Of a stretch of 31,252 nucleotides of DNA, positions 7,647 to 28,889 are shown one piece after another. How positions within the stretch are numbered: position 1 is the first letter of the stretch; the number at the start of each line of letters is the position of its first letter. The DNA lies in the IMG/VR virus record IMGVR_UViG_3300032893_001088, positions 1 to 31,252 of that record. The stretch is one strand, 5' to 3'. The position numbers were made by a program, and so were the translations under genes. The DNA is from a virus. The notes beneath the pieces are model-generated. The model ran no database searches and was not told the DNA's origin. It worked only from the letters and a program-made list of their open reading frames with translations.

Positions 7647-8270
7647 GTGGCCAAGATTCCTCTAGCACTAGTACAGCAACTGGAAGCGGGTCCCATTTGG
7701 GAGAGATTGCCCGGTGAGTCTCCTCAGGCATATGCCCGATTCCTCATTTACCGTGATATGCCCCCCGGCCAGCGTTCCCTTCGCAAGCTCGGTTTTGGTC
7801 GCTCCCAGTCCGAGCAATGGTCGAAGCAGCACAATTGGGTACAACGGTGCGCCGAATGGGACTTATACATGCAACGTTTAGCTGATGTCCAAACGGAGGG
7901 GGCCGTCGTTCGCATGCGTTCCCGTCACGCCGATTTGGGAATGGCATTGGTCAACAAGGCTGTTGCTGGCGTAGAGTCTATTGACCATACCAAGTTAGCC
8001 CCCGATGACGTAGTAACGTTGGCGAAGACAGGGGTATCAATCGAGCGAGCGGCGCGTGGTTTGGCTTCCGAGGAGAAGGCCGTCGCTCCCCCTCCCGTTC
8101 TTATTGACAACCGTACCGCTATTTTGTTCCCCGATAGTGTCCGTCCCGCTTGGGCACCTGATAACAAGATTTCCATCCCCGATGACAAGACCGTTTCCGC
8201 TCCCGCTCCACCCGACCGTACCATTCGGCGCGAGAAACTTTCCCTCCCCGACCGGGTTGCGGCGAAATGA
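7647..8270 (+). CDS. Putative terminase small subunit
   Basis: 207 residues from a GTG at 7647; an upstream in-frame extension to 7380 lies in the repeat region and has no start signals. The N-terminal part (ESPQAYARFLIYRDMPPGQRSLRKLGFG... then WVQRCAEWDLYMQRL) is a helical DNA-binding type segment common in phage small terminases. A central helical stretch (ALVNKAVAGVESIDHTKLAP, VVTLAKTGVSIERAARGLA) follows and the C-terminus is Pro-rich. The gene ends in ATGA, overlapping the large terminase start, and lies next to the candidate packaging site; both support the assignment, which rests on context and pattern rather than a diagnostic motif. Confidence 0.75.
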   Translation: MAKIPLALVQQLEAGPIWERLPGESPQAYARFLIYRDMPPGQRSLRKLGFGRSQSEQWSKQHNWVQRCAEWDLYMQRLADVQTEGAVVRMRSRHADLGMALVNKAVAGVESIDHTKLAPDDVVTLAKTGVSIERAARGLASEEKAVAPPPVLIDNRTAILFPDSVRPAWAPDNKISIPDDKTVSAPAPPDRTIRREKLSLPDRVAAK

Positions 8271-9958
8271 GTTTACATTCGACCACCTTAGTCTCCGACC
8301 CACGTGTTGGTCCCCCATTGGAGGTAGTTTGCGAGGGCCGTACTTACCGTATCGGTAAGCCCCCTTCGTGGAAGCAATGGGCATTCATTGGCCGCTCGGA
8401 ACTTGAACAGCTGTACGGCGGTTCCAAGCGCGGCGGCAAGTCCGCTGCTTTGGCCGAGAAAATTATCTCCCTCCTTGTTTCGTTCCCCGGCAACCGTGGT
8501 GGCTTGTTCCGCCAAGATTTGACTGACTTGAAGGATTCCACTCTCATGACCTTCGAGCAGATGGTCCCCCGTGACCTTATCATTCAACACCACCATACCG
8601 ACCATTTTTTCCTTATCAAGTCCTATGACCCCAATTATCCCTCCCGCCTTGATTACGGTGGCCTAGGCGACGCCCACACCTTCGAATCCGCCAAAGGTAA
8701 GGACTACGGTTTCGTTGCCATCGATGAACCATCTGAGATTGACCCTCAGACCTATCTCATGCTTCTCGCTCAGTTGTGTTGGCAGCTTCCCGATGGCTAC
8801 GGCACCTTTGACCCCCAATCCAACTGCTGGCGTCCTCCCTACCAGATGCTGCTCGGTTCCAACCCTGAGCCGGGGTGGTTGGAGGACAAGTTTGGCCATT
8901 TGATTGATGCCGCTGACCGTGACCACCCCATTGTTACTGACGGCCAGCGTGTCTATATTATGTCCCTTCCCTCCGACAATCCCTATCTTCCCCCCAACTG
9001 GGAGGATATCCTCCGCAACCAAAAGGACATCCCACAGGCGTGGATTGATAAGTACATCGAGGGCAAGTGGGGGTCGAGCGAAGGGATGGTGTTCAAAGAG
9101 TTCGACCGCCGCGTTCATTGCGTCGACTGTCCTCCCGACGAGTATTTGAAGCATCTCGACCTTTATGCTTCCATTGACCATGGCGGCACGGGTACCACCT
9201 GCATGGTAATTGTCGGTATCGACCCCAATTCCAATATCATTGTCCTCGACTCGTACTACGAGAAGAACCGCTTGATTTCTCAGCATGCCGATGGAATGAA
9301 ACGTATGATGGACCAGTGGGTGGATAAGTGCGGGAAGAGAGACAGGGCCAAGGCCGCGTATACAGTAGACATGGGCGGCGGCGTATACGAGGCGTGCTAC
9401 GGGTTCGAGTACATTCTCATTGACCCATCCACCGAAGCCAAGACCATGCAGAACAAAAACGAGATGTGGTCCGTCCAAGACATGTATCGTCGTGAAGGCA
9501 TTCCCACCCAACCTGCATGGAACGCAATTGCCGCTGGCATTACTCTTCTTGAGGAGTATATTCATGTAAAGCCCTCCCACATCCATCCGTTCCTTCTCGG
9601 CCCCGATGGTCATCAGCTTCGAGGCGCTCCTTCCTTTTTCATTGTCACCAAAAACAATCGCGATGGTATCCGCGAAATGCAGGGATGGAAGCGTACCATC
9701 ACCGTCAACAAGTCCATTCGCTACGTCGGTTCGGACCACTGGATTGATAACGTCCGTTATATTGCCATGTCCCGCCCCGAACCCCCCACCTTCACTTCTT
9801 CTGACATTTTCTCCATGTCCACTCATTCCCAGATAGCCCAACGTGCCCTCACCAAGTTCGATGACACTTTCGGCAGGTCTGGCAATTCCAATTCTTGGTT
9901 TCCCCATCACGGTTCCTCTTCCGGGAATACTTGGTTCAACAGAAGGAGGCTAAACTAA
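8267..9958 (+). CDS. Terminase large subunit (packaging ATPase and nuclease)
   Basis: 563 residues, ATG overlapping the small subunit stop. The N-terminal ATPase has Walker A GGSKRGGKS at 51-59, Walker B FVAIDE at 149-154 and a coupling-like GSNP at 197-200. The C-terminal half carries acidic positions of an RNase H-like nuclease: YASIDHG (Asp near 304), LDSYYEK (Asp near 328), VDMGGG (Asp near 368) and DHWIDNVRY late in the protein. It pumps phage DNA into the procapsid at the portal and cuts it. Length is usual for the family. The C-terminal 60 residues are Ser/Gly/Asn-rich and look like a flexible tail. Confidence 0.95.
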   Translation: MSLHSTTLVSDPRVGPPLEVVCEGRTYRIGKPPSWKQWAFIGRSELEQLYGGSKRGGKSAALAEKIISLLVSFPGNRGGLFRQDLTDLKDSTLMTFEQMVPRDLIIQHHHTDHFFLIKSYDPNYPSRLDYGGLGDAHTFESAKGKDYGFVAIDEPSEIDPQTYLMLLAQLCWQLPDGYGTFDPQSNCWRPPYQMLLGSNPEPGWLEDKFGHLIDAADRDHPIVTDGQRVYIMSLPSDNPYLPPNWEDILRNQKDIPQAWIDKYIEGKWGSSEGMVFKEFDRRVHCVDCPPDEYLKHLDLYASIDHGGTGTTCMVIVGIDPNSNIIVLDSYYEKNRLISQHADGMKRMMDQWVDKCGKRDRAKAAYTVDMGGGVYEACYGFEYILIDPSTEAKTMQNKNEMWSVQDMYRREGIPTQPAWNAIAAGITLLEEYIHVKPSHIHPFLLGPDGHQLRGAPSFFIVTKNNRDGIREMQGWKRTITVNKSIRYVGSDHWIDNVRYIAMSRPEPPTFTSSDIFSMSTHSQIAQRALTKFDDTFGRSGNSNSWFPHHGSSSGNTWFNRRRLN

Positions 9959-10222: not shown

Positions 10223-10447
10223 ATGAGATTGTCGGAGAAGATGAAACGCCGCGTACCGAGGTCCAGGCGTGGTGTTCCATCGAGGTCCGGCACGGGTTCT
10301 TACCCAATGCCCGATGCCGAACATGCCGCCTCCGCCAAAGGTTTTGCAGCCATGCATCACGGCAAGAATTCCTCTGTTTATCGTCAAGTAGCGGCCAAGG
10401 CCCGTAAATTAGGCTATGGCGAAGGTCCAGCATCGGAGGACACGTAA
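10223..10447 (+). CDS. Small phage protein with PMPDxxHAxxA motif
   Basis: 74 residues, ATG at 10223, directly after the stop of the previous gene. A basic N-terminus (RRVPRSRRGVPSR) is followed by YPMPDAEHAASAKGFAAMHHG and VAAKARKLGYG. The YPMPD..HA..A.....H....V..KA..LG pattern is one I recall as common in short proteins near the packaging genes or fused to the ends of phage structural proteins. Function unknown. Confidence 0.7.
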   Translation: MRLSEKMKRRVPRSRRGVPSRSGTGSYPMPDAEHAASAKGFAAMHHGKNSSVYRQVAAKARKLGYGEGPASEDT

Positions 10448-10975: not shown

Positions 10976-10978
10976 CCC

Positions 10979-11706: not shown

Positions 11707-11711
11707 AACTG

Positions 11712-12068: not shown

Positions 12069-12070
12069 CG

Positions 12071-12355
12071 GTGTTCAACTGGGTACACCGCCGCAGTTAT
12101 GAAGCTGTCGTCAACGCCCTCAATGCTCGTCTGATTGAAAAGGACGACCAGATTCAGTATCTCCGTGACCAGTTCCGCGATTTGCAAATGCGCAATGACC
12201 GTCTCACGATGGCGTTGGCGCAGAAGGCCGGGGTGGAATTGGTCATACCGCTTGATGAGCCGCCACCTTCTTCCCCCGGTCCCAAGACTTCCGGGTGGTT
12301 CGACCGCCACGTCGCTTCCCCCGTTCCCCCGGTTCCGCCTAAAGGAGGCAAATAA
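12071..12355 (+). CDS. Small coiled-coil late protein
   Basis: 94 residues from a GTG at 12071, two bases after the previous stop. Residues 8-50 form a charged helix with heptad character (YEAVVNALNARLIEKDDQIQ, YLRDQFRDLQMRNDRL), then a Pro-rich tail (PPPSSPGP, PVPPVPPKGGK). The tail codons hold the AAAGGAGG ribosome site for the next gene. Likely a small oligomeric structural or chaperone-like protein. Confidence 0.7.
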   Translation: MFNWVHRRSYEAVVNALNARLIEKDDQIQYLRDQFRDLQMRNDRLTMALAQKAGVELVIPLDEPPPSSPGPKTSGWFDRHVASPVPPVPPKGGK

Positions 12356-12356
12356 C

Positions 12357-13061
12357 ATGAAGAATTGGAAGTCCAAGGCCGTATCCATTTTCACCAGCAT
12401 GATTCTGGCGTTCGCGTTCGTATTCACCATCGTCGGTACCCCCGAACAGCGTGTCTACGCTCAGTTCGTCGGTGCCGCTTATCCTCCGGGATTCGCCGCT
12501 GCTGCCAACAATGGCGTAGTCAATGCCGCCATCGGCAACAATTTGGCCACTACCAATCCAGCATCCAACTTTATCGTGCTGGTACAGGGCGGGCCTGTTT
12601 ACTGCGGTGGCTCCGAACAGATTGTGGGCACTTCCACTTTGACGTTGCAGGCCAACACCACATATCTGTTGGTGTGGAACTGCTCATCCGAACTTCTCTA
12701 CGCCAAGACCGCCGTTAATGGCCCCGGTTCGTCCGGTACCACCCCCGGCGTTCCCGCTTCTTATCTCGCCGCTATTCCGAACGTCGAAGTTCCTTTGTCC
12801 ACTGTCGTGTGCAACGCCACCGCTTGTGGCAATGGCGGCAACGGTTCCATCACTGATGCCCGCCCACTCAGCGCTTTCCCCGGAGGGGGCATGGCGTTGG
12901 CTACTTCCACTTTCGCCAACCTTCCCACTTCCAATGTTCCCGATGGCACAATGATTCTGTGTACCAATTGCACTCAGCCAACCTCTGGTTCGGCTGCCTG
13001 CTCTTCCGCCGCCGCCAGCGTTCTAGCGGTTCGTGTGGCTGGCGCTTGGCGCTGTTACTAG
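12357..13061 (+). CDS. Signal-peptide-bearing tail/attachment-type protein
   Basis: 234 residues from an ATG at 12357 with AAAGGAGG 9 bases upstream; an earlier frame extension overlaps the previous gene and is rejected. The N-terminus is a textbook Sec signal: basic KNWKSK, hydrophobic AVSIFTSMILAFAFVFTIVG, then a likely cleavage after VYA. The mature part is Asn/Gly/Ala/Thr-rich beta, with GPVYCGGSEQIVGTSTL, VPLSTVVCNA, GSITDARPLSAF and a C-terminus SNVPDGTMILCTNCTQPTS ... LAVRVAGAWRCY. The last part is the pattern I recall at the ends of phage fibre-like proteins. It lies just before the portal. Confidence 0.7.
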   Translation: MKNWKSKAVSIFTSMILAFAFVFTIVGTPEQRVYAQFVGAAYPPGFAAAANNGVVNAAIGNNLATTNPASNFIVLVQGGPVYCGGSEQIVGTSTLTLQANTTYLLVWNCSSELLYAKTAVNGPGSSGTTPGVPASYLAAIPNVEVPLSTVVCNATACGNGGNGSITDARPLSAFPGGGMALATSTFANLPTSNVPDGTMILCTNCTQPTSGSAACSSAAASVLAVRVAGAWRCY

Positions 13062-13090
13062 TCCAGTATTAATTTCTTGTTCACACGGGA

Positions 13091-15364
13091 ATGTCATCGC
13101 TTGTACAAGCCGTGCTCGGCGCAACCGGGCGGGGGACCACCGGGCAATCCGAACAGGAACCCGGCGTCGGTACTGGCTTGGACAACGCCAAGGTCCTGCA
13201 ATTTACTCAGGACCGATGGAACGATCTCAAGTCCGCCTACATCGTTTATCATCAGGCGGTATGGGAGACATTCCTTTTCTACGCCAACCAGACGTGGATT
13301 GAATGGGACAACGCCCGCAAGTTTTGGCAGCCCGTTGTCCCAGATGACGAGTGGGTGCCTCAGCCCCGTATTAACCGTTTTTCCCCCACCATCGATGCTG
13401 TTGCCTCCAATATCTATCAGGTCCCCGAGGTTGAGGCCACTCCCAATCCCGATGACGACCCTGTTTCCACCATGGTTGCTCAGGTCTGTACCGATTTGGC
13501 CGAGTATGCCATGCTCAAGGAGGGATTCAAGCGCCAAATCCACTCGGAGATGGATAAGTCTGGCCTTGCCGCCCAACTTTTTATCCTTGCTGGCGCTGTC
13601 AGCAGTCTAATCCGCGTCACTCCTACTTCCCTTCAATCTCCTTCCCAGTCCGTCCAGAAGACTTTCGGCTACCAGTGCGACAATTGCGATAAGTGGAACA
13701 TGGTCCCGGTGGGGCAGGAACCACCGAAGTTCTGCCCCGAATGCGGGAATCCAGTCGAACCCGAGGATGCCGAAATGATGGCACCGGATGTGGACGAGTC
13801 CGGCCAGCCTGTCATGCAGGACAACAACGAGTACGAGATTTCCTGTGAAATTGGGTGCTCCCTCAACATGTTCCCGCGCCCCGGTGCCCAGTCCGTCGCC
13901 GAATCCCCTTATCTCCTTTGGGCCAAGCGTCAGCCCACCGATACCATTTATTTCCGCCACAACAAATTCGAGGCCGAACCTGACAACATTTGGCCCGATG
14001 GTTACGCTGTCACTTACGAACACGCCCTCAATTTCTGGTATACTGGTTATTCCTCCTCCTCCATTCAGATTAAGGACTCCTGCATGGTGCTGGAGATGTT
14101 CGTCGAACCCAACAAGGTCAAAGACCATCCCGATGGGTTCTACGCTGTCGTTATCAATGAGAAGATAGCGGATTCACGTCCGTGGAACTTTCCCGAGCAT
14201 CCTCTTACTCTCGGCGGCTATCTCACTCTTCCCACCATCTTCTTTCCCCGCTCTATTGGTTTTGATTTGGTCGAGATTCAGCGCGAGCTTAATTCCTACG
14301 AGTCCGTTATCAAGCTCCATTCCATGGTATCCGCCGTTGACCCCATCGTTCTCGACAAGAATTCCTCCGTTGGCGAGGTCACTGGTCATGCAGATAAAAT
14401 TATTTATTGGCGGCCCCTCGGACCCAACGCCCAACCCCCCTTCCGTTTGGGTGCAGGACATCTGGATGACGGAATCTACAAACAGCGGGACAATCTCCAC
14501 GCCGAGTTTCAGAACATCTCCATGGCGGTTAATGCCTTCCGAGGCCAGCAAGAAGGAGCCGTTACTGCTGCCGCTGCCATTCAGCAACTCCGCTCCCAAG
14601 CCGAGTTGATGTTCTCTAAGCCCGTCGCCAACTGGCTCAATTTCTGGTGCGAGACAATCCGCAAGTACGTCAAGTTCATGCAGAAATTTCTTACTGTCGA
14701 ACAGCTTGTCCGCATTCTTGGCCCCAATCGTCTCGCTGAGATTCAAGCTTTCAAGGCCGCTGACCTCGACAATGTTACCCAGTGGGTAGCGTCGTCCCAC
14801 GGCATCCCCCGTACCCGTGACGAGAAGCGGCAAGAGTTCATGGCTCTTTGGGACAAGGGCGCTCTCGACATTACCGACCCCTCCGTTCGTCAGAAGATTC
14901 ACGACCTCTTTGGCGAGACCGGAATGATGGACACGTTCAACGAGGATGCCACTAACGCCCGTCTCGAAAACCAGTTATTTAAGACTGGCACCAACAAGAT
15001 TCCCGGCGCTCCTTATATCCCTCCCAAGATTGTGCCCCTCGTCGGTATCGAGGATATGCCAGTCCATCTTTATTTCCACAAGCGCTGCGTCAAGTCTCAG
15101 GATTTCCAGAAGTGGCCTCCCGAGGCCAAGCAAGCTCTCATTCAACATACCCTTCTCACCATGGCTGAAATTCAGCAGCAGGCCCTCGCCCAAGCAAAGG
15201 CTATGGGGCAGGGCGGGCCAGATGACAAGTCCTCCGACAAATCCTCATCTGCAGGCCCAAAGACCTCCGCTCAGTCCCAAGGGGCATCTGGCGCTCGCGC
15301 CGCTCAAGGCGCACCCCCTCAAGTTCCAGGTCAACCTGCTGGAGCCGGGAGGACTCAGCCATGA
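13091..15364 (+). CDS. Portal protein (P22-like) with zinc ribbon insertion
   Basis: 757 residues from an ATG at 13091. The length, helical stem region near 430-560 (QRDNLHAEFQNISMAVNAFRG, AAAAIQQLRSQAELMF) and position after terminase identify the portal, the 12-fold head gate through which DNA is packed and released. The N-terminus (WNDLKSAYIVYHQAVWETFLFYANQ, PRINRFSPTIDAVASNIY) fits P22-type podovirus portals. Residues 196-218 are unusual: CDNC, 15 residues, CPEC, a zinc ribbon. The C-terminal 60 residues are Gly/Gln/Ala/Pro-rich and flexible. Its stop overlaps the next gene (ATGA). Confidence 0.85.
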   Translation: MSSLVQAVLGATGRGTTGQSEQEPGVGTGLDNAKVLQFTQDRWNDLKSAYIVYHQAVWETFLFYANQTWIEWDNARKFWQPVVPDDEWVPQPRINRFSPTIDAVASNIYQVPEVEATPNPDDDPVSTMVAQVCTDLAEYAMLKEGFKRQIHSEMDKSGLAAQLFILAGAVSSLIRVTPTSLQSPSQSVQKTFGYQCDNCDKWNMVPVGQEPPKFCPECGNPVEPEDAEMMAPDVDESGQPVMQDNNEYEISCEIGCSLNMFPRPGAQSVAESPYLLWAKRQPTDTIYFRHNKFEAEPDNIWPDGYAVTYEHALNFWYTGYSSSSIQIKDSCMVLEMFVEPNKVKDHPDGFYAVVINEKIADSRPWNFPEHPLTLGGYLTLPTIFFPRSIGFDLVEIQRELNSYESVIKLHSMVSAVDPIVLDKNSSVGEVTGHADKIIYWRPLGPNAQPPFRLGAGHLDDGIYKQRDNLHAEFQNISMAVNAFRGQQEGAVTAAAAIQQLRSQAELMFSKPVANWLNFWCETIRKYVKFMQKFLTVEQLVRILGPNRLAEIQAFKAADLDNVTQWVASSHGIPRTRDEKRQEFMALWDKGALDITDPSVRQKIHDLFGETGMMDTFNEDATNARLENQLFKTGTNKIPGAPYIPPKIVPLVGIEDMPVHLYFHKRCVKSQDFQKWPPEAKQALIQHTLLTMAEIQQQALAQAKAMGQGGPDDKSSDKSSSAGPKTSAQSQGASGARAAQGAPPQVPGQPAGAGRTQP

Positions 15365-15648
15365 CGTTGATTGCAGACTCCGATGCCGTATCTGTCGCCA
15401 ATGCTCAGGCAATCGGTGACATCATCAAGCTTATTTATATTCACTGGGGGGCAGAGGCTCTGGTTATTCTCAGTTTTATGTGGGGCGCATTCAAGTATTA
15501 TACCCGCTCGGTCCGTCATTACGGTCGAATGGAGCAGATGTTCGACGACCACCCGCTCCATCGCCATTCCGAGTCCGGCATCGAGGTACTTAGGGCGGAT
15601 GGCATTATGTACCCCAAGAACAGAGAACCACGAGGAGAATGGCGGTGA
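15361..15648 (+). CDS. Small membrane protein
   Basis: 95 residues, overlapping the portal stop by four bases. One clear hydrophobic helix at about 26-46 (LIYIHWGAEALVILSFMWGAF) follows a polar N-terminus; the rest is hydrophilic and His/Arg-rich (HYGRMEQMFDDHPLHRHSE). The size and single transmembrane helix could fit a holin or a membrane-anchored accessory factor, but there is no lysis gene nearby, so this is a guess. The stop overlaps the start of the next gene. Confidence 0.7.
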   Translation: MTLIADSDAVSVANAQAIGDIIKLIYIHWGAEALVILSFMWGAFKYYTRSVRHYGRMEQMFDDHPLHRHSESGIEVLRADGIMYPKNREPRGEWR

Positions 15649-18431
15649 AGGTGAGGGCCAACGGTAGACTCGCAATCGGGCTTGTTTTGTTCCTGCTACT
15701 CGCGTCTGTGGCTTCGGCCCAAACAACTGTTGTCGGCACCGTTATTGACCCCAACCAGAATCCGTACTCCAACGGAACGGCGTCCGCTATTCAGGTGGTC
15801 GTTTCTGGTCAGAACCCCGGCTCCCCCACCAATGTTTCCACCGACAACTCCGGGTCTTTCTCGATGTCGTTGCCGTCTAATACTTATTACGTATTTACTA
15901 TCTGTGCCCCCCCTACTCAACTTGGCCCAACTTCCAATCCTACCCCCAAAATGGTGTGCTTCCAGTCTGGGCCAATATATGTTTCCGGCGTGTCACAGGA
16001 CGTGTCATCTTCTCTCAATTCCGTTGCCGCAATACTTGGGCCTAATCTTGCTGCCAGTGTCACAACTATCGCCAACGCTATCAATGCCCCCGGCCCTTGT
16101 CCCACTTCCGCTCCGTGCCAGATTGGACCATACTGGTATGTAAGTAGCGCCAATGGTCTATGTACCCCTCCCGCCGCCCCTACGGTTGCCACTGAGACCA
16201 TTTCTAGCGGTACTGGGAATTTCACCAGTGCCCAGACTTATTACGTGGAAGTCCGCCTCGGTAATATGAATGGTTGGACTCCCCCTAGTCCTCCTACTTC
16301 TTACACTCCCGCCTCCGGTTCTACTAATCGTATGCTGGTTCAGCTTTCCGACTGGAGTTATCGCTCGGGCTGCTACAAGTATCAGGTGCAGGTGTCCACT
16401 TCCGGTTCAGGTGGGCCATATTACCCCGCGCAGGCTTGGACTTTGCCCTCAGCCAGCATCGCTTCGTGGTCATGTAACGCCGCCAAGCTGTGCACCGTCA
16501 TTACTAGTCCGGCTCACCCGTTCATCCCCGGCGAATACATCACCATTTCCGGGGCCGCCACTGGCACGAATAGCACATCTATTAACGGCTCGTGGACTCT
16601 GGTAGGCCAGCAGACCAGTACTCCGTTTACTCTCTTCTTCTTCCGTGGAACTTCCACCGTAGATTCGAGCGCAGTCGCTTCCGGAACAGCTGTAGCTCAG
16701 GCTGGCCTTGGCTCTGATACCTATAGCCATCTCGTCCCCGGCGATTTCATCGTGGATACGGTTCCATTGAGTGGTGCATCATTCCCTAATACCAATACGG
16801 CTGTCATTGACCCTGACCAAGTGGCGCTCAACGCTACCTGCAATTATTCCAACAACACCTGTACTGGTGGGGCGCTCCAGTACCCTCAAAGCAACCCTAT
16901 CGGTAGCTATATTACCGGGACTACTCCTCTTATCATCTCCAACCAACAGACTGTTCTGGGAATAAACTCCGCATTGGGGACATACAAATCAGTACGTACG
17001 TGTAACTGGGCTGACCCTAACATCGCGTGCGTGATGTTCCTCGGTCCAGCGAACGGTGTCAGATTCGAGGGGTTGGATATCCGAGCGAACAATGGACACG
17101 GCCTCGAATTCTTTGGTGCTGGTCCGGGGTACGGAAGCTCCAACGACTTTATCCGCAATAATAACATTTCAACCGGGGACCTTACAGGCAAGTACAGCGC
17201 TATCTATATTCATGGCGGCGTCTGGTACAACATGTACTTCGAGAACAACTTTCTTAACGGCGGTCTGTCCGATGTACAGATTGATGCTCTTTCCGGGGGA
17301 TGGTTGTTCTTTTCCGGGTCTAGGTGGAATGCGGCTAACCTTCAACCCTACGGTCTGTCGTCCCAAGCGATGTTAGCGCAATCTAGTATCAGTGACCCCG
17401 ACCGTGGAATTATCCGGGCCGGATTCAACAGCGGCGCATCCACAGTAGAAATATCAAATATTGTGGAGGAATCGGGGTCAGGTGTAATATTCGATGTCCC
17501 CAACATCGGACTAGGACTGAGTAATGTTACAGCAGCAGATTCCTCTGCCATGGCCGGAACCCCGGCTCTAATTCGTGTCGGCACGGACGCCAACACCACT
17601 TCATCCGGATGGAATTTCCACATCGAGAACAGTATCATCAACGCCGTCTCCGGAGTTCCGACTGGCCTCCAAGTGGTGACGAACACTGGCACATCGAATA
17701 TCGGTTACATCTACGTGTCACATTCCACTCTGGGCGGCAATCCTAACGAAATCGATCTTAATGGTTCCGGTGCCGGGTATATCTGCGTCAACGGTTCCAT
17801 CTGCAACAGCTATCCGGCTGCTACGGGGCACAAGGTTATCAATCCCGGCGTATCGAATCCGGGGACTGGAATAGCTGCCGGACAAATCGGGTCGAATGCT
17901 GGTGAATATGCGTACAACCAGCTTACGATGGGGACGAGGTTCACCTATAAAGGTGGGACAGACGGGTTCTATTTCTGGCCTTCCAGCACAGCGGACTGGT
18001 GGTGGTATGGCGGTGACCCGGCTGTTAGCACGAATCGTGGGATGGATTGGTCGTGGAACAGCGGGTTCCGTATGCGTATCTGGCAGAATGATGGTGCTAC
18101 TCCACTCGTTGATTTCTGGACGCAGGGGCAGAATGAAATTAATTTTTGCAATCCGTCCAGCCCATCTGCCAACCGCATCAATATCAACTGTGACATCGTT
18201 GGTAAGAATGCCCCGATACAGGCGTCACTCACCACGACCGCATCTACCAGTGACAACGTTACTGTAACCGGAATGACTGCGAGTGGCCATTGCCAGATTA
18301 CCGCGACAAATGCGAGTGGTGCCACGAATATCGCCACCACTTATGTTAGCAATAAGACGACCAATCAAATTACCGTCACCCACACGGCGACCAGTGGGAT
18401 GACTTACGATATTATGTGTACAGCAGATTAG
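15639..18431 (+). CDS. Secreted, beta-helix tailspike-like adhesin
   Basis: 930 residues. An ATG at 15639 sits almost on the GAGGAG site, so the GTG at 15645 with 7-base spacing may be the true start. N-terminus KVRANGRLAIGLVLFLLLASVASA is a strong signal peptide with an ASA cleavage site. Residues about 28-90 (TTVVGTVIDPNQNPYSNGTA, VSTDNSGSFSMSLPSNTYY) look like a carboxypeptidase-regulatory or Ig-like fold. Around 460-700, repeated Asn/Gly/Ser strands (GVRFEGLDIRANNGHGLEF, FIRNNNISTGDL, YNMYFENNFLNGG) suggest a right-handed beta-helix as in tailspikes. A C-terminal TVTGMTASGHCQI-type domain ends it. Probably receptor binding; a secretion signal is unexpected for a virion protein. Confidence 0.7.
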   Translation: MAVKVRANGRLAIGLVLFLLLASVASAQTTVVGTVIDPNQNPYSNGTASAIQVVVSGQNPGSPTNVSTDNSGSFSMSLPSNTYYVFTICAPPTQLGPTSNPTPKMVCFQSGPIYVSGVSQDVSSSLNSVAAILGPNLAASVTTIANAINAPGPCPTSAPCQIGPYWYVSSANGLCTPPAAPTVATETISSGTGNFTSAQTYYVEVRLGNMNGWTPPSPPTSYTPASGSTNRMLVQLSDWSYRSGCYKYQVQVSTSGSGGPYYPAQAWTLPSASIASWSCNAAKLCTVITSPAHPFIPGEYITISGAATGTNSTSINGSWTLVGQQTSTPFTLFFFRGTSTVDSSAVASGTAVAQAGLGSDTYSHLVPGDFIVDTVPLSGASFPNTNTAVIDPDQVALNATCNYSNNTCTGGALQYPQSNPIGSYITGTTPLIISNQQTVLGINSALGTYKSVRTCNWADPNIACVMFLGPANGVRFEGLDIRANNGHGLEFFGAGPGYGSSNDFIRNNNISTGDLTGKYSAIYIHGGVWYNMYFENNFLNGGLSDVQIDALSGGWLFFSGSRWNAANLQPYGLSSQAMLAQSSISDPDRGIIRAGFNSGASTVEISNIVEESGSGVIFDVPNIGLGLSNVTAADSSAMAGTPALIRVGTDANTTSSGWNFHIENSIINAVSGVPTGLQVVTNTGTSNIGYIYVSHSTLGGNPNEIDLNGSGAGYICVNGSICNSYPAATGHKVINPGVSNPGTGIAAGQIGSNAGEYAYNQLTMGTRFTYKGGTDGFYFWPSSTADWWWYGGDPAVSTNRGMDWSWNSGFRMRIWQNDGATPLVDFWTQGQNEINFCNPSSPSANRININCDIVGKNAPIQASLTTTASTSDNVTVTGMTASGHCQITATNASGATNIATTYVSNKTTNQITVTHTATSGMTYDIMCTAD

Positions 18432-18439
18432 GAGACGAT

Positions 18440-18925
18440 ATGAATAGGAAAAGTACCTGTATCTCCGGTGTTTTCTCTCTGGTCTTCTTGGTCGTAATGC
18501 TGACCCTCATCTATACTATCCCATTTCCCCCGTCTCATGCTTCTCCTTCCCCCTCCCCCGTGTCCGCTGTCCCCGTCACTTGTGACCACTGGACTCCTAT
18601 CAATACCACCGCCAACGTCCGTATCATTCAGGGGAACTCCTCTGTCCCCTACAAGACTTATATCTGTTCCATCGAACTCCTTGTTGGCACCGCTACCAAT
18701 GTCGCAATTGTCGAAGGTACCGGGTCAACCTGCGGCACCAATACCGCTGGAATGGCTGGTGGTGCCACCGCCGCTACCGGATACAATTTTGGTGCCAATG
18801 GCGGAATAGCACACGGCTCGGGGATTGGAGCAATTATGGTCACCGCCACCCCTCAAGATGACGTGTGCGTGTTGGTATCAGCCGCCAACCAAGTATCCGG
18901 TGTAATAGGATGGACACAGCAATGA
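18440..18925 (+). CDS. Secreted small Gly/Thr-rich structural protein
   Basis: 161 residues from an ATG at 18440 with AGGAGACGAT upstream. N-terminus is basic then hydrophobic (GVFSLVFLVVMLTLIYTI) and ends near SHASP, a probable signal peptide. The mature protein (VTCDHWTPINTTANVRIIQG, YKTYICSIELLVGTATN, IVEGTGSTCGTNTAGMAGG, YNFGANGGIAHGSGIGAIMV) matches a pattern I recall in phage-encoded beta-sandwich proteins of virions, which usually end in VSGVIGW-like strands. Even number of cysteines may form disulphides after export. The stop overlaps the next start (ATGA). Confidence 0.7.
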   Translation: MNRKSTCISGVFSLVFLVVMLTLIYTIPFPPSHASPSPSPVSAVPVTCDHWTPINTTANVRIIQGNSSVPYKTYICSIELLVGTATNVAIVEGTGSTCGTNTAGMAGGATAATGYNFGANGGIAHGSGIGAIMVTATPQDDVCVLVSAANQVSGVIGWTQQ

Positions 18926-20403
18926 AATACGTTCGCCCATTTCTGGCCCTCATAGTATCTATTTTGTTCGCTAGCAGCGCCATGAGTGTGCCACAGTGTG
19001 TACTAACTTTGTGTGGCGCGGGGCCGAGTGGCGCTGGTGGCGGTCCAGTAGTTCTGTCTCCGGGGTGGACATTTATTCAGGACTCCTATACGGACTGCGG
19101 GGCGGTGTCCAGTTGCAGCGTTCCTACTTGTGCCACTGGTGCCTATTGTATGTCCCCCACTACTTCGGGCACCGTTTGGGTTGCCGCAATCGTTGTTGGC
19201 GATAACGGTTCGACGCACCCCACGATTTCATCCGTCACCGGGGGTGGCGGGTCATGGAACCTGTGCGCTGCTAGCGCCTGCCATACCTTCGTCTCCGGAC
19301 AAATGGGGTCAGACGCCGCATACAACTTCACCGGAACGGCAGGAACCACGACCATCACGGTTAATTTATCTGCTACCGCTACGAGTTACTTCCACATCAT
19401 CTTCGTTGAACTTCTCCCGCCTAGTGGGTACTCCGCTAGTCTTGATGGCGTGGCGGTGAACAATTCATCTAGCTGTCACATCTGCACAGCTGCCTCTCCC
19501 ACCGTCACCCAGACTGATGCCATTGTTCAGATACCGCAGTTCTCCTGCTGCTATTCAGACTTCAACGGATGGTCGAGTCCGTACATCACGGACTACAACT
19601 CTATCGGAATCTGCCTGAACTGCTCCAGTGGGGCGGCTCCGACGTACACGATGGCAACGGACGTAGAGCACGGCTCTGGTCCGGGGCCGCAGGTATTCAC
19701 GGCGCTTGCGTTCAAATCGACGGCTGGCACGTTCACGACGCCCGCACCGTTCTCACTCGTCCAGTACGCGATGCCGGGGAATAGTTCGACCATATCCTGC
19801 AGTCCGACGTGCAACCTGACAGTTCCGTCTACTGGAAGTAGTCACCTACTCTTCCTCGTCGAAATAGACCAGAGTGGCGTGAACAATTATATGACTGGAG
19901 TGACAGGTGGCGGGACATGGGTCGTCCCATCGGCTTGTCGTTCCGGGCGGGCTACAGCCAACGGTGAAATCAGTTGCGCCTACGTCCTATCGAGTACTTC
20001 TGGGGCTACTACTCTCCAAGTCACGATGAACAGCAACTCTACCTCCCTGTTCGCCTATTGGGAGATAAGCCGCTCGGTTGGTTCATTTGTCCTCGATGCT
20101 GGCTCTGCTACTGTTAATACGGCGATTGCTTCCGGCGTTATCCCCGGCGTCGCTCTCACATTGAGCGGCACGAACGATGTAATCTTCCAGATGAGCGCCA
20201 TGGAAGGCGGAGTGCAGGGTTGCACGCTCTACCCGTACAACTTCAACGCTCCCGGCAATTTTAGCGGTAAGCTGATTGCTGGACCGGATTACTATGCAGC
20301 GGCTCTGATGAACTTGAACACGGTGAACGGGACGGCCCCGACGTGGGCGTACCCCCAGGAGCCAACGGCAACAACCGCAGTCGCAGGATTCGCATTCAAA
20401 TAG
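18922..20403 (+). CDS. Secreted Cys-rich beta-sandwich protein with two repeats
   Basis: 493 residues, ATG overlapping the previous stop. Signal peptide VRPFLALIVSILFASSAMS. The rest has two related halves, near residues 45-240 and 255-490: each begins with a W or F strand, includes V-T-G-G-G-(G)-x-W (ISSVTGGGGSWNLC and MTGVTGGGTWVVPSAC), a TTxTVxxS/NS strand (GTTTITVNLSATATSY and ATTLQVTMNSNSTSLF), an E-xxx-S/P strand, then SGxxDA... This is the style of lectin-like or Ig-like folds in phage adhesins and cell-surface proteins. Many Cys pairs (CSVPTC, CAASAC, SSCHIC) suggest disulphide bonds in an oxidising compartment. Confidence 0.7.
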   Translation: MKYVRPFLALIVSILFASSAMSVPQCVLTLCGAGPSGAGGGPVVLSPGWTFIQDSYTDCGAVSSCSVPTCATGAYCMSPTTSGTVWVAAIVVGDNGSTHPTISSVTGGGGSWNLCAASACHTFVSGQMGSDAAYNFTGTAGTTTITVNLSATATSYFHIIFVELLPPSGYSASLDGVAVNNSSSCHICTAASPTVTQTDAIVQIPQFSCCYSDFNGWSSPYITDYNSIGICLNCSSGAAPTYTMATDVEHGSGPGPQVFTALAFKSTAGTFTTPAPFSLVQYAMPGNSSTISCSPTCNLTVPSTGSSHLLFLVEIDQSGVNNYMTGVTGGGTWVVPSACRSGRATANGEISCAYVLSSTSGATTLQVTMNSNSTSLFAYWEISRSVGSFVLDAGSATVNTAIASGVIPGVALTLSGTNDVIFQMSAMEGGVQGCTLYPYNFNAPGNFSGKLIAGPDYYAAALMNLNTVNGTAPTWAYPQEPTATTAVAGFAFK

Positions 20404-20413
20404 GAGGGACGGA

Positions 20414-20833
20414 ATGTTATCTACGCTTCTTCTACTAGCCAGTCTCGGAATGCACCCAATGGCGATGCCGCAGTCTGGTGGGCCATGCGGCGCTTCGGCT
20501 CACTGCATCGTCTTCACTTGGACCGACACGGCGAACCCGGCGAAGTGCAACGCCAGTTCGACTCCATCCTGTACGCTGACCTATTCCCTGTTTGCCGGGA
20601 CGACGAGTGGCGGCGAGAACTATACTACCCCTGTGGCGACTGGCATCTCTTCGCTTACTTATACTCTCCCGGTGACATTGACTACTAATCCGCAGACGGG
20701 GTACTACACGCTCGAAGCGGTTATTACGCAGGGTGGAATCACGGTTACTTCGGCTCCGAGCGGGGAGGCGGGGCCGATTACCTTTCCCGGCGTGCCTAAT
20801 GCCCCCGCTTCTCCGAGTGCTGTGCCACATTAA
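20414..20833 (+). CDS. Secreted fibronectin type III-like protein
   Basis: 139 residues, ATG at 20414 with AGGAGGG upstream. Hydrophobic N-terminus MLSTLLLLASLGMHPMAM may be a short signal peptide, lacking a clear basic region. Residues 30-115 look like one fibronectin III-type domain: IVFTWTDTANPAKC, LTYSLFAGTTSGGENY, LTYTLPVTLTTNPQTGYYTLEAVI. The C-terminus is Pro/Ala-rich. Such domains in phages usually help contact carbohydrates or decorate structural proteins. Confidence 0.6.
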   Translation: MLSTLLLLASLGMHPMAMPQSGGPCGASAHCIVFTWTDTANPAKCNASSTPSCTLTYSLFAGTTSGGENYTTPVATGISSLTYTLPVTLTTNPQTGYYTLEAVITQGGITVTSAPSGEAGPITFPGVPNAPASPSAVPH

Positions 20834-20861: not shown

Positions 20862-21530
20862 ATGGCTGACCATCAAAGGTCCGACAAAGAAGTTGGCGGG
20901 ATGCCGATATATCAGGCTGGCGACTTGCACAAGGTTAATGCCATGCGCAAGAACGAATCCCAACCTGACCTTCTTACTATCCCCCATCTTCACGATGCCG
21001 ATGTAATGTTCACCCGCGCCGCCGAAATGGGCAACAAGCCCTCCTCTTGCTATACTTGTCATTTTCGCAATTGCAAGGATGACACCTGCGCCCTTATCAC
21101 TCCTAATGTCAAGATTAGGAAGGTTCAGCGCAACGGAATTGAATACTGGCCCTGCTGTGGGATGCATGACTACGGAGAATGTAACGATGGACCTCCTAAC
21201 CGTTGTTCAACGAATAGCCCGGACACGCTTGGTCTCATCTGGATTAACGCACCCTACACTGGAGCTAATTACGGAGGAGCTTCCTGCGGGGGCCAGAACG
21301 CAGGAGATGACTGCGACCATTATATCGTCGAGGGCGGAAAATCCAAGCGTGATTGCCCAACTGGGTTTTGCCGAGTTCTCCAGCATACTGTAGCAAACGG
21401 AGATACTTGTGTGGCTTGGCACGACGATGATATACTGGGGTGGCAAGAGGCTCAGAACTTGATTCAGGGTCCCGAGGAGCAGCGCGACAAAAAGCGTCTG
21501 GTGGACTCGATTATGAAGCGGGAGGATTAA
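20862..21530 (+). CDS. Cys/His-rich hypothetical late protein
   Basis: 222 residues, ATG at 20862, no signal peptide. A cysteine-dense core (SSCYTCHFRNCKDDTCALI, YWPCCGMHDYGECNDG, NRCSTNS, GGASCGGQNAGDDCDHYIVE, RDCPTGFCRVLQH) spans residues 60-180, while the N-terminus is ordinary helix and the C-terminus is charged (GPEEQRDKKRLVDSIMKRED). The many CxxC and CxH pairs could bind metals or form disulphides; no known domain was recognised. It sits between the secreted adhesin block and the scaffold gene. Confidence 0.75.
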   Translation: MADHQRSDKEVGGMPIYQAGDLHKVNAMRKNESQPDLLTIPHLHDADVMFTRAAEMGNKPSSCYTCHFRNCKDDTCALITPNVKIRKVQRNGIEYWPCCGMHDYGECNDGPPNRCSTNSPDTLGLIWINAPYTGANYGGASCGGQNAGDDCDHYIVEGGKSKRDCPTGFCRVLQHTVANGDTCVAWHDDDILGWQEAQNLIQGPEEQRDKKRLVDSIMKRED

Positions 21531-21535
21531 TTCCA

Positions 21536-22570
21536 ATGCGGCTTTTCATGTACGCTCGAATTTACGATTCCATTCTCCACGATTACGTTGACTTTCCCCC
21601 GATGCTGATGGCCTTCGCTTCCTCGGGAACTCCAGCCCTAGGTGGCGGAGGAGGAGGCGCACCGAGTGGAACCGGAGCAGGAGGCGCGGGTGGCGGCACA
21701 CCGTCCCCGTCCCCCGCTGCCCCGTCCGGGCAGCCCGCAGGAACGGGAGGAGCACCGCAAGGCGGGGGCGCACCACAGGGCGGGGGCGCAGGTCCAGCCG
21801 AGTCCGAGGGCATCCGTCAGCTTCGCCAGCAGTATGAGGAAACCCGTGGCCGCTTGCAGAACTGGGAACGCCTCGGGTTCTCCCACGACCAAGTTGGTTC
21901 CTTCCAAAAGACCTATCAGGCGGTCTACTCCGAAGTTGCTCAGATTGGCGAAGGTCTCGGCTACGACAAGGCCGAGATTGACGAAGCATTCGCCATCAAC
22001 CCAATCAAGCTTCTCGACATTCTGCGGCAGGAAGCGTACGAGAGGGAACAGAGCGGGGAAGAAGGCGGGGGCGGCGACCAAGACATCGCCCAGTTGGTGC
22101 AGGGTCACGTCGAACGCGCCCTCGGCCCGATTCAGGAGCGCGAGAACGTCCGCATCACCAATGAGGCCAACCAGCTTTTCAACAACACCGTCCGTTCCCT
22201 CGCCACCGACCACTACAAATCCCTCAACATCGATTACAATTCATTGGAACCGGACGAGAAATTCCTCCTCGAAACCAGCGTCAGCGAAGTCATGAAGTAT
22301 GACGATGATGCCCTGAAAGCAATGAAGTACGAGGGCAAGACAGCCGGAATACAGAAGGCATTCTCAACGGCGGTCGCCGCCCTCGACAAATACTTCATCG
22401 CCCGCATGAAGCGAGAACGCGGCGCTGTGGCGGGAGCGGGAGCGGGCGGGGGGCGGGGAACGGGGGCAGACAACGGGGGCGCTGCTCCGAAGAAGCCGAA
22501 CCTCGACGAAATTATCAACGACGGAAATGCCGTCCGGCGTGCGCAAGGGAAGCCGGACTACGCGTCGTAG
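21536..22570 (+). CDS. Capsid scaffold protein
   Basis: 344 residues from an ATG at 21536 with GGGAGG 10 bases upstream; a later ATG (MAFASSGTP) is also possible. After a Gly/Ala/Pro/Ser-rich N-terminal part (residues 35-100), residues 100-290 are charged helix (RQLRQQYEETRGRLQNWERL, DIAQLVQGHVERALGPIQE, NEANQLFNNTVRSLA) with coiled-coil character; a Gly/Ala-rich stretch and a KPNLDEIINDGNAVRRAQGKP end follow. The position directly before the major capsid protein and the helical, acidic-basic pattern are typical of phage scaffolds, which guide procapsid assembly and leave before maturation. Confidence 0.75.
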   Translation: MRLFMYARIYDSILHDYVDFPPMLMAFASSGTPALGGGGGGAPSGTGAGGAGGGTPSPSPAAPSGQPAGTGGAPQGGGAPQGGGAGPAESEGIRQLRQQYEETRGRLQNWERLGFSHDQVGSFQKTYQAVYSEVAQIGEGLGYDKAEIDEAFAINPIKLLDILRQEAYEREQSGEEGGGGDQDIAQLVQGHVERALGPIQERENVRITNEANQLFNNTVRSLATDHYKSLNIDYNSLEPDEKFLLETSVSEVMKYDDDALKAMKYEGKTAGIQKAFSTAVAALDKYFIARMKRERGAVAGAGAGGGRGTGADNGGAAPKKPNLDEIINDGNAVRRAQGKPDYAS

Positions 22571-22680: not shown

Positions 22681-24099
22681 ATGCATCGCCCGCGTCGTCC
22701 GTGGGTAGCGGCTCTGCATTTGGCATTCGGGCTATATGCCCTATTTTGCCTCATCCTGACCGCTATCTTCCACGGTCTCGGTCACTCAAGCGGCATTTTG
22801 TTCGCCGCCGTCGATACCACCACTTACCTGTCCGACGCCAAAATCGTTTATGGGGCCATCCAAGAGCAGGTTTCCACTCTTGCGGCCTTCATGAACCTCC
22901 TTGGCGACGGCAGTAAGTTCGGTAAGCCCATCAACAACATTGGCATTCGCGGGTATGTGTTCTTGGCCCGCGTACAGCCGAACTGGAACCTCGGGTATCG
23001 CCTCGAAGGGACCACTGGCGTCGGTTTGGCCGGGAATCAGGGCCTCACCAACTCCACCGTCACCCTTCGTTACGCCTATTGCCCCATCACTATCACCGGG
23101 CAGGCGGAGAACCTAACCAAGGGCGAATCCCGCGCCTTCATGCAGGCCAAGGCCCTCGAAGCCAAGTTCGACATGAAGGATATCGTGAGCCACGTGAACG
23201 TGGTGGTGGTTGGAGCAGAACCGGGCGGGCAGTTGGCCCAAGCTGCTGCCCCAATCGTCGCCAACACTTCGTTCACCGCCGACAACGCCGGGTTGCTTCC
23301 GGGCGCGATTTACCTGCGCGTCGGAATGCCAATCGATTCTATCCCGGTGGGCGGAGGCGCTCCCGATTTCACGGCCAAGACCATCTCCGCCATCAACTAC
23401 ACCACCCGCGTCGTCAGCGTTCCGGGAACCGCCGTTGCTGGTCACGCAATCGCGCTTGCTGGCGAATACCCGCAAGCTGCGGTTGCAAACGATGGATGGG
23501 TCACCGCCAACGGGTTGCAGAACCTCATCAACTCGTCCGGCGTGGTGCAGGGGATTGACCCCGGCGTTTGGCCAGCGTGGCAGTCCTACCTGTTCGACAA
23601 CGGTGGGTCAGCGTTGTCCAGCCAACTGCTCCAGCAGCTTCGGCAGTTCGTGAAGAACCGGGGCGGCGTGGATGGGAACATCTTCATCTTCCCGTCCGCC
23701 CAAATCAACCAGTATATCGGACTGGCGACCACAACTCTCCGGTTCGACATCACCAACGAAGGTCCGGCAGCCAAGGTGGGGAAGAAAGCCTTGGACCTCG
23801 GGTTCAATGTGTTCGACTACGCGGGACTCCCCGTGGTCGAAGACAAGGATGCCCGAACCGACCGTATCTTCCACGGCGACACCGAGATGATGAAGAAGTT
23901 TGAGGCCATCCCGCTCTCGCTGGCCGAGGATGAGGCTGGAACTTGGACTCGCATCATCGGGGGCAACGGAATCGCAGATGCCGTCGCTGGTCTGCTCCGT
24001 TGGTACCACAACATCGGGGTAGTGCAGCGCTCCGCATTCGGGCGTTTGCAGAACCTCGCGGTGCCCGCGAACTTCGCGACTGCACCACCGACCATCTAA
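22681..24099 (+). CDS. Major capsid protein (HK97-fold type), with hydrophobic N-terminal extension
   Basis: 472 residues from an ATG at 22681 with AGGAGAG upstream. From about residue 42 the sequence follows a phage major capsid plan: AVDTTTYLSDAKIVYGAI, VFLARVQPNWNLGYRLEG, VTLRYAYCPITITGQAENLTKGESRAFMQAKALEAKFDMKD, FIFPSAQINQYIGL, FNVFDYAGLPVVEDKD, and a C-terminus with LRWYHNIGVVQRSAFGRLQNL. It forms the icosahedral shell. Residues 1-40 are odd: basic HRPRRP then WVAALHLAFGLYALFCLILT, which looks like a signal peptide or membrane helix and is not usual for capsid proteins. A later start at the TTG (near 22798) would remove it but has no ribosome site. Confidence 0.85.
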   Translation: MHRPRRPWVAALHLAFGLYALFCLILTAIFHGLGHSSGILFAAVDTTTYLSDAKIVYGAIQEQVSTLAAFMNLLGDGSKFGKPINNIGIRGYVFLARVQPNWNLGYRLEGTTGVGLAGNQGLTNSTVTLRYAYCPITITGQAENLTKGESRAFMQAKALEAKFDMKDIVSHVNVVVVGAEPGGQLAQAAAPIVANTSFTADNAGLLPGAIYLRVGMPIDSIPVGGGAPDFTAKTISAINYTTRVVSVPGTAVAGHAIALAGEYPQAAVANDGWVTANGLQNLINSSGVVQGIDPGVWPAWQSYLFDNGGSALSSQLLQQLRQFVKNRGGVDGNIFIFPSAQINQYIGLATTTLRFDITNEGPAAKVGKKALDLGFNVFDYAGLPVVEDKDARTDRIFHGDTEMMKKFEAIPLSLAEDEAGTWTRIIGGNGIADAVAGLLRWYHNIGVVQRSAFGRLQNLAVPANFATAPPTI

Positions 24100-26933: not shown

Positions 26934-28889
26934 ATGGCCTCTACGCCACAATCCGGGTTCTATTCGACGCCAGCATTCGAGATTTTCCGCCGTGGCATGG
27001 TGGTGCAAACCATCAAGCAGTTCCGTGGCATTAATCTCTATCAAACTGAGTCGTCCCTCGGCCCCGACTGGGCACTCGACTGTATGAACGTTATCGTCGG
27101 TTCCGATGGTGGCCTTCACAAGATGCGGTATCCCGTTCAGCTTACTCAGAATGGTTGGAATACTACCGCCACACGGTTCGTCGATTTTCAGCAGGGTAAC
27201 GGCACTCGCCAGCTTGTGATGTTCGGCCCCAACAACATCCAATATGTCCCCCCGGACTTCTCCGCCGCTCCCACTTTGATTTCCGCTGACCCCGCCAACG
27301 CTGGCAAGTGGCGGTCAGCGCAAATCAACAATATCATGTTCGCTGGTAACGGCGTGTTAATGAAGAAGTGGACAGGAGCGAACTGGTGGAACTGGGGGGT
27401 AGCACCAGCGGGGGCGGCGGTACAATACGTTGGGACGGTGGCCGGGAATCTCTCTCCCCTCACCGGGTACGAGTGGGCTATTGCCTTTAAGAATTCCGTC
27501 ACAGGGGATGTATCCGTTGCTTCCCCCGCAACACAGCAACTGGGCGGTGGTTCCGCCAACGTCTCATTCAATCTTCAGGGTTATCTCCCCGCCGACCCTC
27601 AAATTGACACTATCATTGTCTATCGCACCCTAGATGGCGGCGGCAACCTTTATCGTGTTGCCGAAATCGATATCGCTACCATGACCGTTACCTTCAATGC
27701 CGCCACTTTCTTCTTCAACGGTTCCAGTATCGCTTGGACCGACAATACTCCTGATGGCAATTTGGACCTCACTACTCAGGCGTCCTACATCAATTTCCCT
27801 CCTCCCGTTGGCAATATCATCGTCACCGGGCAGAACCGAATTTTCATCGCTGGCATTGTCGGTGACCCGCAAGCCGTTGCTTATTCCGGGTACGAGCAAA
27901 TCTTCAATGGTTTGGCCCCCGCTTGTTTCCCGCCTTACAATCGTCTCCGCCTTCCCATGGGCGCTGAATCCGTCGCCGGCCTCGGTGTTCTGGAAACTGG
28001 CGTCGTCGCTTTCTCCAATACAGGCCGTCTGTATACCCTCCGTGGCCAAGTCGAGGATATCACCACCAGTTCCCCCGTCAATTTTACTCAGTACCTTATC
28101 GCGTACGATTGGCCCACCGGGTGCCTGAACCACGACACTATCGCCGCCACCCCGTACGGTCTCATTTTCCTTGCTGGTGACAAGACCCTCCAGATTTTCC
28201 AGTTTCCCGGCCCTCCCACTGACATCTCTGGCCCCGTTTATCCTATCCTTCGGGCAATTACTCCGGGCACGGAATCCCAATGCGTCGGTACCGTATTCAA
28301 CTGGTTGGAGCGGGACTGGTATGCACTAACCTGCTGTATCAATGGTGCCATGGTCCCCAACCGTATTATCTTCTGGTCCCTCGCTCCGTCTTCCGGCGAT
28401 GTTGAAATTTTTATTTCCGATATCTCCGCCTCCTTCATTGGCACCATTACTACCCCCCTTCTCCAGCGCGAACTTGCTATTTGCTCCCAAGGTCAAATCT
28501 ATCAGCTACCAGTGTCGTCGGATACCGTTGGCGGCATCACCCGTGACCTTACCATTATCCCCCCCACCGACAACAAGCTTAATGCATGGTGGCGGTCGGG
28601 GTACGCTGGAAATGACACTCCTCAGCAGTCTCGTATGTTCAAGCATTGCCGTCTGGCGACCGATGTTGACGCCACCGCATTCGATCTCGACCTCCGCTTC
28701 GTTGACGATGAGGATTACACTTTCCTCAATCCCCTCCTTCTCCACCGTGTCATTAAAGACCCGAGCGGCAAGTTCAGCCCCGGTCGCCGCTCAAAGCGCA
28801 TGAGCGTGCAAATCAACTTTCCCGCCGATGATGTATCGGCCAACGTCATTGAGATGCAGATTGCTGTAATTCCCACGAGTTACAGGTGA
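26934..28889 (+). CDS. Tail nozzle / stabilisation protein (beta-propeller, gp12/gp10-like)
   Basis: 651 residues, ATG at 26934 with only an A-rich leader; M22 (MVVQTIKQFRG) is an alternative. The opening FRGINLYQTESSLGPDWALD then NVIVGSDGGLHKMRYPVQL is a hallmark of podovirus tail nozzle or stabilisation proteins. The body alternates strands with a repeated VYRTLDGGGNLYRVA-like part (Ig-like insert near 180-230) and propeller blades (SGYEQIFNGLAPACF, TGRLYTLRGQVEDITTSSPV, YGLIFLAGDKTLQIFQFPG). The C-terminus ends in VIEMQIAVIPTSYR. It closes the tail until infection. Confidence 0.8.
   Translation: MASTPQSGFYSTPAFEIFRRGMVVQTIKQFRGINLYQTESSLGPDWALDCMNVIVGSDGGLHKMRYPVQLTQNGWNTTATRFVDFQQGNGTRQLVMFGPNNIQYVPPDFSAAPTLISADPANAGKWRSAQINNIMFAGNGVLMKKWTGANWWNWGVAPAGAAVQYVGTVAGNLSPLTGYEWAIAFKNSVTGDVSVASPATQQLGGGSANVSFNLQGYLPADPQIDTIIVYRTLDGGGNLYRVAEIDIATMTVTFNAATFFFNGSSIAWTDNTPDGNLDLTTQASYINFPPPVGNIIVTGQNRIFIAGIVGDPQAVAYSGYEQIFNGLAPACFPPYNRLRLPMGAESVAGLGVLETGVVAFSNTGRLYTLRGQVEDITTSSPVNFTQYLIAYDWPTGCLNHDTIAATPYGLIFLAGDKTLQIFQFPGPPTDISGPVYPILRAITPGTESQCVGTVFNWLERDWYALTCCINGAMVPNRIIFWSLAPSSGDVEIFISDISASFIGTITTPLLQRELAICSQGQIYQLPVSSDTVGGITRDLTIIPPTDNKLNAWWRSGYAGNDTPQQSRMFKHCRLATDVDATAFDLDLRFVDDEDYTFLNPLLLHRVIKDPSGKFSPGRRSKRMSVQINFPADDVSANVIEMQIAVIPTSYR

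Follow-up and report, generated by a model that had tools for sequence, protein, structure and literature searches.

Tailed phages are held to be assembled wholly in the cytoplasm. The coat proteins pIII and pVIII of filamentous phages belong to the virion and are synthesised with cleavable signal peptides, but they are unrelated to the proteins described here, and these phages are not tailed and leave the cell by non-lytic extrusion through the membrane. In crAss001, a member of the Crassvirales, gp22 has been proven by structure to be a tail fibre of the virion and is docked through residues 1-26 (PMC10172136). For rumen Bacteroides phages, one or two signal-peptide proteins have been reported, the identity of which is not stated in the relevant part of that report (PMC5723332). 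No publication that describes signal peptides for the fibres of a tailed phage was found among open-access full texts. The window analysed here is the whole of IMGVR_UViG_3300032893_001088, a virus contig of 31,252 bases without a host genome, in which an earlier sequence-only reading had proposed Sec signal peptides for five late genes near the portal gene. Predicted signal peptides in the late block are a property of the lineage to which this contig belongs and not a quirk of one contig. We consider it somewhat better than an even chance that these genes encode the receptor-binding tip proteins, fibres and spikes of a podovirus, which are made as Sec precursors and dock at lysis.

Predicted signal peptides of the window genes

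The coordinates and reading frames given previously for the five genes (SP1 to SP5, all on the + strand) are correct. SP1 precedes the portal gene, and the other four genes are located between the portal and scaffold genes. When the N-termini are examined by a tripartite test (n-, h- and c-regions combined with the -3/-1 rule), the proposal of Sec signals holds for SP1 to SP4, but not for SP5. Each of the four accepted genes has a start backed by a Shine-Dalgarno (SD) sequence, and its product combines a basic n-region with a hydrophobic core and a cleavage site of the AxA type. SP1 (12357..13061) encodes a 234-aa fibre- or tip-like protein with a predicted signal at residues 1-35 (score 20.8); its ATG is preceded by AAGGAGG 8 nt ahead, and the predicted cut, YA↓QFVG, follows AFAFVFTIVGTPEQRVYA. 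SP2 (15639..18431; score 25.4) encodes a predicted tail fibre or spike precursor of 930 aa, in which the signal is followed by an N-terminal domain. It starts either at ATG 15639 or at GTG 15645 with AGGAG, and the signal, with a predicted cut at AIGLVLFLLLASVASA↓QTTV, is retained from either start. SP3 (18440..18925; score 20.2) encodes a small Cys-containing beta protein of 161 aa, with an ATG served by AGGAG, a predicted signal at residues 1-34 and a predicted cut at LVFLVVMLTLIYTIPFPPSHA↓SPSP. SP4 (18922..20403; score 19.1) encodes a Cys-rich (3.85%) beta protein of 493 aa with a predicted signal at about residues 1-20 and a predicted cut at KYVRPFLALIVSILFASSA↓MSVP; its ATG overlaps the stop codon of the preceding gene, and it has no homologue among the compared genomes. 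SP5 (20414..20833; 139 aa, SD sequence AGGAGG) has a hydrophobic N-terminus (MLSTLLLLASLGMHPMAMPQSGG), but fails the test because this stretch lacks a positive n-region, so that its signal is marginal. Neither a twin-arginine motif nor a lipobox was seen when the window signals were inspected for them, and export of these proteins by the twin-arginine (Tat) or lipoprotein route was set aside on this inspection.

The description of the mature parts as rich in Cys, Asn and Thr is borne out. They contain 1.9-4.0% Cys, 17-25% Asn plus Thr and 4.5-8% charged residues, as compared with 0-1.4%, 7-14% and 14-30%, respectively, for the other late genes of the window, and are also rich in Ser and Gly relative to these genes. 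The gene at 20862-21530, which separates the fibre block from the scaffold gene, is conserved and, like its homologues, Cys-rich (3.4-6.8%) and without a signal; it matches no Pfam family significantly.

Conservation of the signals in relatives

Relatives were drawn from viral contigs, two loci by the portal, 21 and 23 by the major capsid protein (MCP), and more by other profiles. In 22 records, the signal test is passed by 38 of 50 genes at the fibre loci, but by only one of 103 core virion and packaging genes (Fisher p=3e-24). This single core gene is a large terminase (TerL) open reading frame (ORF) that was started too far upstream. By chance, 4.1% of shuffled N-termini and 0.2% of internal segments pass. 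Among the 12 failures, two (in L010 and L022) are SP3-family proteins whose N-terminus is hydrophobic, one (G007 14792) shows a clear signal from the SD-supported start at 14870, and six belong to a separate homologous gene pair in G008, G009 and L081. The possibility that the latter genes are the same fibres minus the signal was rejected, as they form a distinct, mutually homologous pair. The same test detects no signal among the listed late or virion genes of Shocker, MW202795, MW202458, T7, crAss001, B40-8 and FCL-2, or among the plus-strand ORFs of a Silvanigrella phage region.

In the relatives, the signals are found on genes ahead of the portal (the SP1 family) and between the portal and scaffold genes, although the proteins themselves are in many cases unrelated or no more than 30-60% identical. 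Genes at the same loci still have signals where divergence has reached ~50% identity. In G005, additional signal-bearing genes at 9207-12601, between the adaptor and nozzle genes, represent a third location. SP1 has nine homologues at the same position, with an A/G↓Q junction in most rows and two invariant cysteines, C152 and C157. For SP2, the alignment shows a mature protein that starts with QTTVTGTVVDPNGNPY. Homologues of SP3 with hydrophobic N-termini are present in L005, L007, L010 and L022. Internal starts that would drop the hydrophobic stretch were looked for in the homologues, but these retain the signal, and ribosome sites past the predicted cut are few and mostly weak. Neither SP1, SP2 and SP3 nor the right-end fibre domain described below has a match among annotated phages.

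Signal-bearing blocks beside portals in other phages are present in these relatives and in MW202554 (Podoviridae sp. ctLwi270), in which four signal-bearing genes directly follow the portal gene. Two of the four encode a laminin-G/ConA-like lectin and a GH28/pectate-lyase spike. The Phage Tail Collar protein of MW202554 (PF07484, E=1.7e-23) also bears a signal. Over 85 aa, the mature domain of SP3 shares 55% identity with the C-terminus of a signal-bearing protein of 846 aa from MW202554 (L025 14767-17307). The SP3-type domain is, as judged from these alignments, a module exchanged between distant signal-bearing fibres, despite portals that are only 22% identical.

Fibre identity and the anchor domain

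Residues 28-130 of SP2 form a transthyretin/CarboxypepD-like N-terminal domain with a conserved Cys pair, which is followed by a variable beta-rich body and an AC_1-like C-terminal stretch. The Pfam matches to AC_1 (E=6.5e-5) and CarboxypepD_reg (E=9.5e-4) are both under the curated cut-off. The N-terminal domain is kept in five to six relatives, each time right behind the signal. In the AlphaFold2 model of SP2, the predicted local distance difference test score (pLDDT) is 73-88 across most of this domain and low elsewhere. Foldseek gives weak matches of the domain model to the neck protein of phage XM1 (7kjk, TMt 0.49) and to a protein of Vibrio phage SBP1 (TMt 0.66), and PDB sequence searches gave no significant match. 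The model of SP1 (pLDDT 52) is too weak for use.

A second fibre locus is located 3' of the ejection genes, near the right end of the genomes. Its proteins share an N-terminal domain of ~115 aa (28-62% identity) and have unrelated C-termini, the pattern of a conserved N-terminus and a variable C-terminus seen in podovirus fibres. SP2 and the right-end fibres align mainly across the first ~110-140 residues. The right-end domain directly follows the signal in seven genomes (G001, G003-G007 and G009) and in L079. In four contigs taken as complete from their end repeats of 108-127 nt (G001, G004, G005 and G007), every low-charge, Cys-containing late gene of the fibre type bears a signal. The non-core late genes that lack a signal in these contigs are almost all Cys-poor and mostly highly charged, of the ejection type, and no signal-less fibre candidate is left in them. 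Cysteine is enriched in the fibre set (median 2.49% versus 0.88%, p=7e-16), whereas the MCP and scaffold protein are nearly Cys-free. This enrichment, like the conserved Cys pair in the anchor of SP2, would fit an oxidising compartment. Export and fibre identity of the signal-bearing genes are well supported as predictions from sequence.

Several right-end genes were noted by inspection. Several genomes have small lipoprotein and endolysin-like genes at their right end, which suggests diderm hosts and release by lysis. Right-end genes of G009 (27540-28097) and G003 (11662-12339) resemble by eye exported outer-membrane beta-barrel proteins, possibly for receptor blocking or a change of the host surface.

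An anchor domain apparently uncoupled from its signal

In G008, two copies of the fibre begin with the anchor domain without a signal. The domain starts at residue 2 and is 62% identical to that of G009. Directly upstream of the first copy, an out-of-frame ORF of 22 codons (9993-10058; L057), MKRFLGLLALVLAVACPMMEFK followed by a stop codon, matches the signal of G009, MKRFLGLLCLVLAIALPLHA. The stop codon of this remnant overlaps the ATG of the fibre gene, with a GGAG ribosome site in between. As compared with L079, GCCGCCGCC of the cleavage region is exchanged for a 17-nt segment, ATGATGGAGTTCAAATG. Trees of the MCP and of the portal place G008 with G009 and L081, the fibres of which retain the signal. 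Because these neighbours keep it, the arrangement in G008 looks like a secondary uncoupling of the signal from the fibre.

Late-gene context of the window

The late genes of the contig are probably those of a short-tailed phage, and the lineage is one of uncultured podoviruses, soil phages. All genes listed here are on the + strand. TerL (8267..9958; phrog_979, E=2.8e-9), the portal (13091..15364; phrog_156, E=1.7e-13) and the MCP (22681..24099; phrog_14242 major head, E=4e-22) are all of the phage type by PHROG match. The portal is of the P22 type (P22_portal, E=2e-4, under cutoff) and has no close relative among annotated phages, the nearest being that of MW202554. Residues ~190-230 of the portal form a zinc-ribbon-like insertion (CxxC...CxxC) with sub-threshold Pfam matches, and its cysteines are kept in L001. 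A small protein (15361..15648) with a single hydrophobic segment and without a signal peptide is encoded between the portal and SP2. In the PHROG search, the region 3' of the MCP contains adaptor and nozzle candidates followed by Cys-free ejection-type proteins. The match of the candidate of the tail-nozzle or head-closure type (26934..28889) is weak (phrog_511, E=9e-4; phrog_8040, E=0.004); the gene is kept 3' of the MCP in relatives. A gene of tape-measure size is not seen among the window ORFs. Some members of the lineage are probably temperate, because G005 contains a tyrosine-integrase gene (30406-31485; L052). When this integrase was compared with plasmids as a clue to the host, only distant integrases from mixed hosts were found.

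The MCP of the window has a hydrophobic N-terminal extension of 45 aa ahead of the conserved VDTTTYL core, with the SD sequence AGGAG at the extended start and none at the sole internal start. Such an extension is present in nine of the 22 loci compared (the window, L006, L012, L013, L016, L018, L024, L031 and L080). Before V(D/S)TTTYL, it is transmembrane-like and 42-46 aa long in six lineages, including the window, and aromatic or amphipathic and ~22 aa long in three, and the others have none. The extended MCPs have a ribosome site ahead of the extended start. The scaffold-type protein (21440..22570), which precedes the MCP and is conserved in relatives, has a probable start at 21536 and a hydrophobic N-terminus. 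A short hydrophobic segment, such as MTKLLLKLVFFGTTFFASG, is frequent at the start of its homologues; the segment ends with FA(A/S)G(A/T)P(A/T) in L004, L008, L009, L012, L018 and, from 21536, the window. The scaffold segment and the MCP extension hint at membrane-associated capsid assembly.

Discussion

The predicted signals are most simply explained by export of the fibres. The proteins would be translated with a cleavable N-terminal signal peptide, the step with strong sequence support, exported by Sec, and cut by signal peptidase I just ahead of the virion-anchor domain, as the conserved junction suggests. They would then fold, trimerise and form disulphides in the periplasm of a diderm host, for which the conserved Cys pairs and Cys enrichment argue, while signal-less heads and tail cores are built in the cytoplasm. 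Holin, endolysin and spanin would finally break the envelope, so that the two pools come together and the exported fibres attach to the tails; given the lysis-type genes at the right end, lysis would mix the two compartments. Attachment of the exported fibres to virions, and its timing, are inferred, the former because the anchor is conserved and no other fibres are present. A virion of two compartments, in which cytoplasmic heads and tail cores are joined at lysis to disulphide-bonded periplasmic fibres, with the signal as a detachable evolutionary switch that is uncoupled in at least one genome (G008), is a more tentative proposal, to which we give slightly less than an even chance.

Several points weigh against docking of exported fibres at lysis. 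The signal test is a home-made rule and not SignalP, and virion membership of the signal-bearing proteins is inferred from sequence. The model gives no account of how large beta proteins would be exported before they fold, or of how docking would follow lysis. Two scans of genome contigs with MCP and portal profiles gave no prophage, and the G008 case is one contig only. The signals of some relatives have a Cys near the cut (LLAAC↓AGA in G004 and LLAC↓NSF in G005), so that some of these fibres could be lipoproteins. The virions of crAss001 contain disulphides, yet its virion proteins have no signal peptides, and Cys enrichment alone is therefore no proof of export.

The sequence-only reading had left three explanations side by side: coating of the host by exported proteins, acquisition of exported fibres by virions, and capture of host secreted genes. 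The second is the best supported, by signals that front fibre modules at fibre loci, the signal-less anchor of G008, the signal-bearing Phage Tail Collar protein, and the lack of a signal-less fibre candidate in apparently complete genomes. It is unlikely, though the most serious alternative, that the proteins are exported but act outside the virion, as surface decoys, as receptor-masking adhesins for superinfection exclusion, or as depolymerases secreted to remove the matrix that surrounds the lysing cell. The predicted export signals are well supported, several of the relatives resemble enzymes or adhesins (pectate-lyase/GH28, laminin-G lectin), and the G004 and G005 signals resemble those of lipoproteins; however, apparently complete genomes would then be left without a receptor-binding protein. 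It also argues against this explanation that a genome has four to six such genes in classical fibre positions and that one of these genes has a Phage Tail Collar domain, and retention of a virion anchor both with and without a signal is not accounted for by it.

Uncleaved segments that gather the proteins of the fibre, scaffold and capsid at the inner membrane, so that assembly takes place there, would explain why the MCPs at nine of the 22 loci and many scaffolds of the same phages start hydrophobic. This explanation is improbable, because the fibre signals show a small-x-small junction, often followed by Gln, with a conserved mature start that fits cleavage, because the mature domain of G008 serves as its own start, and because the Cys enrichment is confined to the fibre set. 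Capture of a block of host secreted genes is highly improbable. The CarboxypepD_reg-like domain behind the signal resembles the N-termini of secreted bacterial proteins, such as acidobacterial receptors, but the genes occupy fibre loci, show fibre-type modularity and share domains with phages whose portals are 22% identical, and a search of plasmids, the only one made for this origin, gave no match. Wrong starts or chance hydrophobic N-termini are the least probable explanation of all and are already contradicted: the fifth protein is marginal and some shuffled N-termini pass, but strong ribosome sites, conservation over divergent genomes and the absence of signals in control phages speak against an artefact.

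Taken singly, fibres, podoviruses and signal peptides are nothing new; their lineage-wide combination appears to be new. If virion docking is true, the assembly route itself would be new, and tailed phages would have a second assembly compartment, with virions built from parts made in two cell compartments. Systematic signals on receptor-binding proteins would explain how disulphide-rich fibres are made, and would serve as a sequence marker of fibres among unannotated phage genes. Docking of fibres from outside at lysis becomes a testable question, for which G008, with its uncoupled signal, is a ready comparison.

The described systems share different parts of this arrangement. T7 gp17-type fibres are similarly encoded after the ejection proteins and combine a conserved N-terminal virion-binding domain with a variable tip, but T7 gp17 has no signal peptide. 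The actinophage Shocker and its relatives have a homologous portal and MCP and hydrolase- or esterase-type genes in the late block, but their hosts are monoderm and their late genes lack signal peptides. crAss001 has a P22-like portal and the same order of portal, fibre/spike block (gp21-gp26) and MCP, but its fibre proteins have no signal peptides. MW202554 differs in its portal (22% identical) and is likewise uncultured, and its annotation is silent on signals, but it combines a distantly homologous portal and MCP with a signal-bearing lectin, spike and tail-collar protein and the SP3-type domain.

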